A stretch of DNA of 64,000 nt from Siphonodentalium dalli (Eukaryota; Mollusca; Scaphopoda; Gadilida; Siphonodentaliidae). The DNA lies in NCBI GenBank assembly GCA_032622095.1, contig CP136068.1, positions 12,257,729 through 12,321,728 on the forward strand, written 5' to 3'. The position numbers and the translations under genes were made by a program. A model generated the notes under the pieces. That model searched no databases. It had not been told where the DNA came from and saw only the letters and a list, made by a program, of their open reading frames with translations. This document shows, one piece after another, positions 34,186 to 64,000 of this stretch (its first letter is position 1; each line of letters opens with the position of its first letter).

Positions 34186-35339
34186 TACAAGTTGGGTGGG
34201 GTGAAAATGGAATTTACCCGAATTGGACATTTCGGTCTGGTTTAGGGGGTGCAATTGGAATTCCCTCCCAAATGGTGACCATCCAGCCACGACCACAACA
34301 CCAAACAATGACTTGTGTTACATACTTGGGGACGAGGACAACAATACATACAATACTTACAATAGTATGCGCTACCAGGGGCGGGATGATTTTTTTTTCC
34401 GGGCACGTATGCCGGGGTGGGTTGGTGGCCGATGGGACCAACAACAAAACATTTCTGCAACCCAAACGTTGTTTTCCTGCATGTTTTTTGACTGTTTTTG
34501 CAATGAGTTTGGCTTAAAACACATTAGAATAAGAGAAATAATGTAATTCTAACTGCTAAACTGACTGCAGGCAGTTATCGTGTTGTATTTTGTTGCAAAT
34601 TTTGAAATCCAAGATGGCCGCTGGTAGCCATGTTTTTTTTGGCCGAATGATCCCAAAATGACTCGTTCCTATTTACATGTCAATGTTAACAGCCATGACA
34701 AATAGTATGCACAGAAATTCATATACAGCAGATCTCTGTTTTAGTGTTAAAAGGGGGTGGGTGTCCAAAAATGGTAGGAAAAAACTGCCGAAAAAGGAAA
34801 CAAATTTGGACGCGGGGGTGGGTGGATCCCAACAAGGGTCGAAAAGTAAAAATCAGCATACGTGCCTGAACATTTTGTCCGACCCCCCCCCCCCCCCCCC
34901 GGCGCTAACAGGGAAAACTGCTTTAAAATTTAGGCCGTGTCACCGCTAACCAAGTCTTGTATTTGTAACTTCAGATCCAATCTCCTTGATTTAGCAAAGC
35001 TAACATTCTTAGTAAATTTAACTGCGCCAGTTACTTGGTTAAAAATCTCCTTTCCGAAGTAACAGACATGTTTAGAGATGGACACCCAAGCAAAGACTAT
35101 TTCCAAATCAATATAGAAAACAAACCTTTCTGAGAAAATTAATCTTTGAACTAGCAATGTTAGCACTGTTAATGGGGACGCACTTTTTGCATAAATCCGG
35201 CCAAAAATGACAAGAAATTTTCAACAAAGAATTTCTCTGGATCTATCTGGCGAAAGGTCTTGAATTTCACAAATCACCATCTCAATTGTAAATAGAATCT
35301 AAGCAATTATTTGGAGACGATAAGACTTTTTGATTTTAA

Positions 35340-35557
35340 CCCTTTACCCAACAGAACGGCCCTGTGCCAATGCATGGTCGACTCGCATATATAAGAGAAT
35401 GCATTGGCACAGGGCATAACTGTAACCATCACAATGTGGTCAATGAGCCGGTTCCAATGCTATCCATATTTGTATGGTTTTATTGAGACAGACCCAAGAT
35501 AATTTAGGCTGTTGCATCTTTATTTGGCCGTTTTTGGCCGGTTTGTTGGGTAAAGGG
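35340..35557. mobile_element. piggyBac-like MITE, left arm copy 1
   Basis: TTAA (35336-35339 and 35558-35561) flanks CCCTTTACCCAACAGAACGG and TTTGTTGGGTAAAGGG. It holds a shortened internal hairpin around GCCAATGCAT. The empty site is visible in the paralogous block near 27859. Confidence 0.9.
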
Positions 35558-35869
35558 TTAATACATTTTTTTCTCCCTTTCTGTTCAAAGAACTGCTAGA
35601 ATAATTAATCATTTCCAGCCCGATGAAAACAAATGTTGATATCAGTGTGGTCCACCCAAGCAGGGAGCAATCAACTGGAATTAGGCCACTTTGTTGAGAG
35701 ATATGGTGGTCAGCTTTAACTTGGTTATGAACCCATGACCCAGACCTCATCTCAGCCCAATTTGTCATTGATCAACAGGCATAACATGCAAATTCTCAAA
35801 TATAGAAAATTAGTTGTGGGTAGTTGCCTTTCTAATGAAAAAAATTATTAAATTACACGAATAATTAAG

Positions 35870-35955
35870 TCACTTCTTAAGATTTTCAGATATAGTATCA
35901 TGGATATATGAACTGCACTTTTGAAACCGATATATTTTACAGAAGTCGTTGGTAC
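35870..35955 (-). CDS. Terminal exon E, left arm
   Basis: Mirror of 62236-62321. If used, it ends the protein after two membrane segments and leaves a Lys/Arg-bearing tail outside by simple topology rules, which makes the D-F junction look more natural. Confidence 0.5.
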
Positions 35956-61900: not shown

Positions 61901-62321
61901 GATTTATGTTTCATTTCACACTAATCTGTCTCTTGAAATTCAAAACTTTTTATTATGGCTGCATATATGTTACCAATATTAACTAAGGCAATAGCTAGGT
62001 TATTAATGATAGGTATGTTCATTGGCTCCACCTTCTTGACAATATATTTTGTTTAAGTTGATTATTGGTTGTTTATGTTTATAATAATAAACAGCCCATT
62101 TGAATCTGAACTACAGTGTTTGTTGTCAATGAACAAGCTCATCCTCTGAGTTCCCCTGTTGTCCCTATATACATGTATGGTCATATGAGATTCTGAAGAA
62201 CATAAATAGGTGGCTTTGAAGTTTTGTGTTTTCAGGTACCAACGACTTCTGTAAAATATATCGGTTTCAAAAGTGCAGTTCATATATCCATGATACTATA
62301 TCTGAAAATCTTAAGAAGTGA
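55943..62321 (+). CDS. Small multi-pass membrane protein gene, right-arm copy (predicted)
   Basis: Plus-strand exons are A 55938-55976 (ATG at 55943-55945, with A at -3), B 56436-56480, C 61049-61147, D 61542-61655 and E 62236-62321. Coding lengths 34, 45, 99, 114 and 86 sum to 378 nt, a whole 126 codons including TGA. This is the mirror copy of the left-arm gene, and I saw no difference between the two in these exons. The predicted N-terminus is outside (NATT site), RKKR after segment 1 is inside, and segment 2 leads outward. The window ends before a mirror of exon F could appear. The two copies diverge outward from the spacer, so any bidirectional promoter or silencing effect of the spacer would hit both. 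No homologue is recognised. Confidence 0.6.
56161..56262. repeat. GA microsatellite, right arm
   Basis: About 50 GA pairs with one AGAAGAG irregularity near 56172, so this is the largest length difference between the arms (about 30 bp with neighbours). Confidence 0.97.
57645..58640 (+). pseudogene. LINE (jockey/CR1-like) fragment, right arm
   Basis: Mirror of 39551-40546 with the same two frameshifts (near 57755 and in the A run near 58430). Endonuclease, ORF1 and the first half of the reverse transcriptase are missing. Confidence 0.88.
59280..59695. repeat. 39-bp minisatellite, right arm
   Basis: Mirror array with the same order of 39-bp and longer units. Confidence 0.92.
61049..61147 (+). 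CDS. Exon C, right arm (membrane segment 1)
   Basis: Acceptor TTTTTCAG and donor GTAAGTAAG, 99 nt, phase 1 to phase 1. Encodes CRGYRYSS, a 17-20 residue hydrophobic span ending VLWQLVL, then RKKR, a basic stop-transfer flank. Confidence 0.7.
61542..61655 (+). CDS. Exon D, right arm (membrane segment 2)
   Basis: Acceptor TTTTTTCGCAG and donor GTAAAA, 114 nt, phase 1 to phase 1. KDGTDNSSK precedes a hydrophobic span of about 28 residues with a single acidic residue (SFVDFAF). A lone Asp inside the membrane is unusual and may be functional. Confidence 0.7.
62236..62321 (+). CDS. Terminal exon E, right arm
   Basis: Acceptor GTTTTCAG, 28 coding codons and TGA. The peptide starts TNDFCKIYRF and contains CSSYIHDTISEN. 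The paralogous exon E' at 28309 keeps the frame across an indel. Confidence 0.5.
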
Positions 62322-62633
62322 CTTAATTATTCGTGTAATTTAATAATTTTTTTCATTAGAAAGGCAACTACCCACAACTAATTTTCTATATTTGAGAATT
62401 TGCATGTTATGCCTGTTGATCAATGACAAATTGGGCTGAGATGAGGTCTGGGTCATGGGTTCATAACCAAGTTAAAGCTGACCACCATATCTCTCAACAA
62501 AGTGGCCTAATTCCAGTTGATTGCTCCCTGCTTGGGTGGACCACACTGATATCAACATTTGTTTTCATCGGGCTGGAAATGATTAATTATTCTAGCAGTT
62601 CTTTGAACAGAAAGGGAGAAAAAAATGTATTAA

Positions 62634-62851
62634 CCCTTTACCCAACAAACCGGCCAAAAACGGCCAAATAAAGATGCAACAGCCTAAATTATCTTGGGTC
62701 TGTCTCAATAAAACCATACAAATATGGATAGCATTGGAACCGGCTCATTGACCACATTGTGATGGTTACAGTTATGCCCTGTGCCAATGCATTCTCTTAT
62801 ATATGCGAGTCGACCATGCATTGGCACAGGGCCGTTCTGTTGGGTAAAGGG
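62634..62851. mobile_element. piggyBac-like MITE, right arm copy 1
   Basis: Mirror of 35340-35557. One flanking TTAA has mutated to CTAA (62852-62855), one of the few substitutions between the arms. Confidence 0.9.
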
Positions 62852-64000
62852 CTAAAATCAAAAAGTCTTATCGTCTCCAAATAATTGCTTAGATTCTATT
62901 TACAATTGAGATGGTGATTTGTGAAATTCAAGACCTTTCGCCAGATAGATCCAGAGAAATTCTTTGTTGAAAATTTCTTGTCATTTTTGGCCGGATTTAT
63001 GCAAAAAGTGCGTCCCCATTAACAGTGCTAACATTGCTAGTTCAAAGATTAATTTTCTCAGAAAGGTTTGTTTTCTATATTGATTTGGAAATAGTCTTTG
63101 CTTGGGTGTCCATCTCTAAACATGTCTGTTACTTCGGAAAGGAGATTTTTAACCAAGTAACTGGCGCAGTTAAATTTACTAAGAATGTTAGCTTTGCTAA
63201 ATCAAGGAGATTGGATCTGAAGTTACAAATACAAGACTTGGTTAGCGGTGACACGGCCTAAATTTTAAAGCAGTTTTCCCTGTTAGCGCCGGGGGGGGGG
63301 GGGTCGGACAAAATGTTCAGGCACGTATGCTGATTTTTACTTTTCGACCCTTGTTGGGATCCACCCACCCCCGCGTCCAAATTTGTTTCCTTTTTCGGCA
63401 GTTTTTTCCTACCATTTTTGGACACCCACCCCCTTTTAACACTAAAACAGAGATCTGCTGTATATGAATTTCTGTGCATACTATTTGTCATGGCTGTTAA
63501 CATTGACATGTAAATAGGAACGAGTCATTTTGGGATCATTCGGCCAAAAAAAACATGGCTACCAGCGGCCATCTTGGATTTCAAAATTTGCAACAAAATA
63601 CAACACGATAACTGCCTGCAGTCAGTTTAGCAGTTAGAATTACATTATTTCTCTTATTCTAATGTGTTTTAAGCCAAACTCATTGCAAAAACAGTCAAAA
63701 AACATGCAGGAAAACAACGTTTGGGTTGCAGAAATGTTTTGTTGTTGGTCCCATCGGCCACCAACCCACCCCGGCATACGTGCCCGGAAAAAAAAATCAT
63801 CCCGCCCCTGGTAGCGCATACTATTGTAAGTATTGTATGTATTGTTGTCCTCGTCCCCAAGTATGTAACACAAGTCATTGGTTGGTGTTGTGGTCGTGGC
63901 TGGATGGTCACCATTTGGGAGGGAATTCCAATTGCACCCCCTAAACCAGACCGAAATGTCCAATTCGGGTAAATTCCATTTTCACCCCACCCAACTTGTA

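Follow-up and report, generated by a model that had tools for sequence, protein, structure and literature searches.

A 67-kb near-identical palindrome in the scaphopod Siphonodentalium dalli: probably a recent inverted duplication with deletion

A 67.0-kb palindrome in an assembled chromosome of Siphonodentalium dalli appears, from its sequence, to be a recent inverted duplication with deletion, made by template switching of the MMBIR/FoSTeS kind; we give this reading a probability of about 0.72. Its arms are ~0.034% apart, as against ~1.4% between an arm and a related locus, C, and two new junctions can be named, which supports the proposal of an initial annotation that the inverted duplication is very recent. 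The window, the whole 64,000-nucleotide stretch that was analysed, is G000:C8:12257729-12321728, in an assembly of 2.227 Gb and nine contigs; positions of up to five digits are those of the window and eight-digit positions those of contig C8. If real, the structure shows a young inverted duplication with deletion at base resolution in a non-model animal, and, because an unrearranged copy lies on the same chromosome, both new joins can be read directly.

Extent of the palindrome and differences between its arms

In a blastn comparison of the window with itself, one minus-strand alignment paired 34186-48117 with 64000-50033 over 13,973 columns at 99.635% identity (5 mismatches and 46 gap bases), an inverted match far beyond chance. 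Between these two segments MAFFT found the same 5 substitutions, together with 7 indels that each fall in a homopolymer or in a (CT)n run. The initial annotation had described a giant near-identical palindrome whose arms differ by few substitutions and by repeat lengths, with a spacer at 48118-50032; both programs confirmed the palindrome, and the details and the spacer coordinates proved correct. The structure is nevertheless larger than had been said, and 34186, which had been given as its limit, is no true boundary because that base is merely the mirror partner of 64000, the last of the window.

For the arm extents we added 120 kb of flanking sequence to the window, making 184 kb read in total. 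The full arms then occupied C8:12273306-12305845 (left, 32,540 bp) and C8:12307761-12340307 (right, 32,547 bp), on either side of the 1,915-bp spacer at C8:12305846-12307760. The left arm (15578-48117, minus strand) is the inverted copy of the right. The arm-to-arm match ends at 15578, and outside it lies flank X (1-15577), the ancestral neighbour of the arm, in which we also noted a 52-bp tandem array of about 78 copies (7035-11080) with a strong C-over-G skew (-0.33 in 8001-10000). The right arm, on the plus strand, has its first 13,968 bp in the window (50033-64000) and runs 18,579 bp past the window end, to meet flank Y at a junction, J2, at C8:12340307. A second junction, J1 (48117-48118), joins the left arm to the far end of the spacer.

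The initial annotation had asked for an arm-to-arm alignment; over the full arms, MAFFT gave 11 substitutions and 10 indels, the latter confined to short homopolymers, to the CT tract and to a single unit of a 31-bp tandem array. This array has 85 copies in the left arm (18761-21391) and one unit fewer in the right, and the (CT)n tract (41920-41993) is 29 bp longer in the right arm, the largest arm-to-arm indel after the 31-bp unit. The excess of blastn mismatches in the outer arms (65 in a 23,219-column piece and 17 in a 5,782-column piece) arose because the array had been aligned out of register, without the one-unit gap. In C the array has about 43 copies by alignment coordinates, about half the length, so that it differs far more between the palindrome locus, A, and C than between the arms.

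The 11 substitutions, at 19204 (within the 31-bp array), 25132, 25869, 28782, 29092, 33766, 34305, 35339, 40084, 41845 and 46911, fit an even spread (KS p=0.69). Six of them are T on the left against G on the right in left-arm orientation, and wherever the MAFFT alignment sets A/T against G/C outside the array (9 differences), the G/C is that of the right arm, a bias that simple mutation does not predict. Seven can be polarised against C (one in the array and one in poorer alignment), five being derived on the right arm and two on the left. We considered a sequencing-error signature and set it aside, the spectrum between the arms being no different from that between arm and C, on just 11 events: transitions and transversions stand at 3:8 and 139:184, respectively (p=0.37, with little power), and the T/G-or-A/C share is 7/11 against 114/323 (p=0.11). 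The 11 differences in 32.5 kb could also be consensus error.

Pfam searches covered 15 distinct ORFs: 14 in the arm, for which 40 were listed (stop-to-stop, 85 aa or more), and one, 48116-48622, that lies mostly in the spacer. None of these 15 was recognisable as a host gene, though spliced genes with short exons would escape such a search. Two reverse-transcriptase matches, at 27.9 and 17.8 bits, were both under the Pfam cut-off of 29.6, and three other Pfam matches (E 0.04-0.07) were taken as chance, as were the 8 matches (E 0.19-0.47) of the longest ORF in a phmmer search of PDB sequences. For structured RNA the window gave 0 matches at gathering scores, and two further scans yielded 22 and 4 matches below threshold, which were set aside; tRNAs were likewise not found, and the spacer had no match in a phage collection.

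The unduplicated locus C and the two new junctions

Locus C lies about 0.4 Mb away on the same chromosome, inverted and ~1.4% diverged, and carries the sequence unduplicated, in an order colinear with spacer, arm and X. The X/arm edge is contiguous in C (401-base probe), and flank X continues colinear with it, inverted and with gaps, up to C8:12786463. At the other end of the arm, a spacer-homologous repeat array is found in C from about 12731.8 kb; because C carries the spacer beside the same arm, this sequence is genomic. The right-arm/spacer edge is matched across by C at 12732847-12733351 (86%), C having one repeat element more than the right arm between the array and the arm proper. Matches to C thus span these two edges of the palindrome, yet they stop at J1 and J2, and because the unrearranged locus lacks both joins while keeping the other edges, we take J1 and J2 to be new.

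In the spacer (48118-50032, plus strand, GC 45%), copies of a repeat element, itself composed of ~131-bp units, follow one another head to tail. One such element (49622-50227, plus strand) runs uninterrupted, head to tail, across the edge between spacer and right arm, which is therefore no break; a single alignment pairs 49613-50137 with 48113-48643 at 88%. At J1, by contrast, a truncated element meets the head of a second one that runs the other way. To the left of J1 the sequence matches the minus strand of C and to the right the plus strand, no match runs across, and the join has 0-1 bp of microhomology and 3-7 extra bases. Besides its internal units, the element has motifs that recur at its head and at its tail; it was seen at 48118-50227 and at L035 1530-4175, and A and C alike have it repeated head to tail here.

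At J2 (C8:12340307/8) the right arm meets flank Y with 2 bp of microhomology. The counterpart of Y in C is at 12676201, 55.6 kb beyond the array, and this 55.6-kb interval, Z, is absent from the palindrome locus; 25.6 kb of it was read, and among 40 candidates scored, a 2.4-kb probe from Z had only short repeat-like matches elsewhere. The exact ancestral edge of Y is less certain, because at the adjacent end of Z the start of Y is present in incomplete, diverged copies (79-88%). Several of these form a row in C at C8:12676200-12677560 (L042 6200-7560).

Origin of the palindrome

Duplication, inversion and deletion are found together at this locus, the combination described for MMBIR/FoSTeS (PMC2621351, PMC9199198), and we infer that they were one event. 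All three together would follow if the template was switched twice in the course of replication or of the repair of a break, presumably as a replication-repair accident in repeat-rich DNA. Microhomology at the joins is a mark of these processes; J2 has 2 bp of it and J1 at most 1 bp, and the mechanism here is deduced from anatomy alone. In the assembly the spacer runs on into the inverted copy, the one without flank X; because a plain fold-back leaves the spacer on the original, we suppose either that replication switched straight onto the opposite strand, 1.9 kb further on, or that the spacer was flipped after a fold-back.

Human fold-back inverted duplications are the closest comparison in several respects. 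The 21 sequenced cases reported in the sections of PMC3907307 cited here have spacers of 766-70,466 bp (median 3,428), and of their junctions 13 have 2-8 bp of microhomology, three repeat homology and five insertions. The palindrome shares with them long inverted arms, an adjacent deletion and a single-copy spacer that, at 1,915 bp, lies within their 0.8-70 kb range; short microhomology or small insertions at the joins may be common to both, and at the join of spacer and inversion, where they show 2-8 bp of inverted microhomology or an insertion, we find 0-1 bp plus 3-7 extra bases. It differs from them in that its arms measure kilobases rather than megabases, its deletion is interstitial (55.6 kb, with Y retained) rather than a terminal deletion, translocation or ring, and its spacer adjoins the inverted copy instead of the original and would need a later flip. 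Breakage near repeats followed by fold-back or strand switching also recalls the inverted-repeat-driven fold-back of single-stranded DNA as presented in PMC10164571, but here no inverted pair of the spacer element was seen around the ancestral spacer. Inverted copies of the element at the ancestral breakpoints were absent from the stretch of C that was read: with up to 4 mismatches allowed, its head motif has 4 occurrences there on the plus strand and 0 on the minus strand; such copies therefore apparently did not prepare the event. Bdelloid palindromes were also considered as a precedent (PMC5916493).

An assembly artefact, in which the palindrome came from a read that was chimeric or folded back, or from haplotypes joined tail to tail, seems unlikely, although artefacts of the fold-back type are documented in ONT and MDA data. 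The cited part of PMC12870357 puts fold-back reads at ~0.55-0.6% of ONT genomic reads and describes them as virtually absent from PacBio HiFi data, and MDA is reported to yield many palindromic reads (PMC13265396). In one of the two artefact reads that PMC12870357 illustrates, the halves lie ~2 kb apart, so that a spacer alone is no argument against a fold-back read; the case that the initial annotation had built on the asymmetric spacer is weak to this extent, but the spacer itself is genomic. The larger inverted A/C pair described below looks as a haplotype join might, and the placing of G/C on the right arm in 9 of 9 A/T-versus-G/C differences outside the array is an oddity. Yet after a fold-back read or haplotype join one would expect identical sequence outside both arms, or else the end of a contig, whereas X and Y are different sequences, each meeting the arm at one base; X and the sequence left of it gave only short repeat-like matches to Y (527 columns at most). 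The 184 kb read contains no N, and no shared flank, contig end or N gap was found at the outer edges, nor does J1 hold a shared overlap able to mislead an overlap-based join. The arms differ far less than A and C do, and changes derived relative to C lie on both arms. Usual HiFi reads are shorter than 32.5 kb, so that the arms exceed them in length. With differing flanks, base-precise edges and no gap, we therefore regard neither of the technical readings raised by the initial annotation as a likely account of the palindrome.

Two further explanations accept the palindrome as real. In one, which we consider quite improbable, two broken fragments bearing the arm were captured by end joining and ligated head to head without replication. 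The 0-2 bp of microhomology at the junctions and the few extra bases at J1 favour this, and with microhomology so minimal it keeps a small probability; but the arm would have to be present twice (on sisters), one end would need breaks separated by 1.9 kb, and Y would have to be attached by a third join that loses Z, so that a single switching event would be simpler. In the other, an older palindrome has been kept identical by gene conversion between its arms, as on the mammalian X and Y, a process compatible with an origin by template switching. The arms are above 99.9% identical, within the range given for human Y palindromes in the cited part of PMC3723533, and like sex-chromosome palindromes as described in parts of PMC8981503, PMC3723533 and PMC7023750 they flank a small spacer. 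In contrast to those palindromes, however, we recognised no host gene among the 15 ORFs searched here and found no signal of GC-biased conversion, which is reported to raise GC in primate X palindromes (PMC8981503). The ratio of G/C gains to losses against C is 129:124 for the arm and does not differ from that for X, 78:72 (p=0.92), and the GC content of the arm (37.2%) is below that of flanks X (39.5%) and Y (39.0% in its first 30 kb); the flank further left has 37.8% and the arm of C 37.0%. The even spread of the arm differences also speaks against conversion. The sex-chromosome-like alternative in the initial annotation thus gains no positive support, and conversion, which is not needed to explain the palindrome, seems to us very unlikely to account for it.

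The larger inverted pair around the palindrome

The palindrome is enclosed in a larger inverted pair, C8:12217729-12397128 (A) and C8:12637148-12857595 (C), with 1.3-1.4% substitutions where measured. The outward match pairs 12217729-12220128 with 12855194-12857595 (99%) and the inward match 12394728-12397128 with 12637148-12640082, so that the matches, in inverted orientation, extend over ~180 kb at A and ~220 kb at C, the stretches between probes having been partly read. A probe at 12.150 Mb had no partner on the C side among 40 candidates scored. Two other probes were discarded, that at 12.480 Mb as a dispersed repeat and that at 11.900 Mb because it lay in a local tandem repeat and was itself missing from its own listing.

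Two origins are conceivable for the A/C pair: an inverted segmental duplication of older date, or a tail-to-tail placing of two haplotypes. The haplotype join proposed earlier, unlikely for the palindrome, may therefore apply to this larger pair, whose presence in the assembly is a warning of possible false haplotypic duplication. Were C the other haplotype, the palindrome would be heterozygous and C its unrearranged allele, leaving the polarity argument intact. Part of the inner A/C sequence has a third copy about 2 Mb away, at C8:14334995-14338330, which lends mild support to duplication. The palindrome arms are ~40-fold less diverged than the A/C pair, and it is conceivable, though not likely, that the region is a hotspot of nested, recurrent palindromes, in which the older A/C pair was followed by a younger one on one side, at a tandem repeat array, such arrays repeatedly triggering strand switching. 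Within the otherwise colinear A and C, a 1.15-kb stretch (C8:12255070-12256219 and C8:12788430-12789568) is oppositely oriented, a small inversion in one copy.
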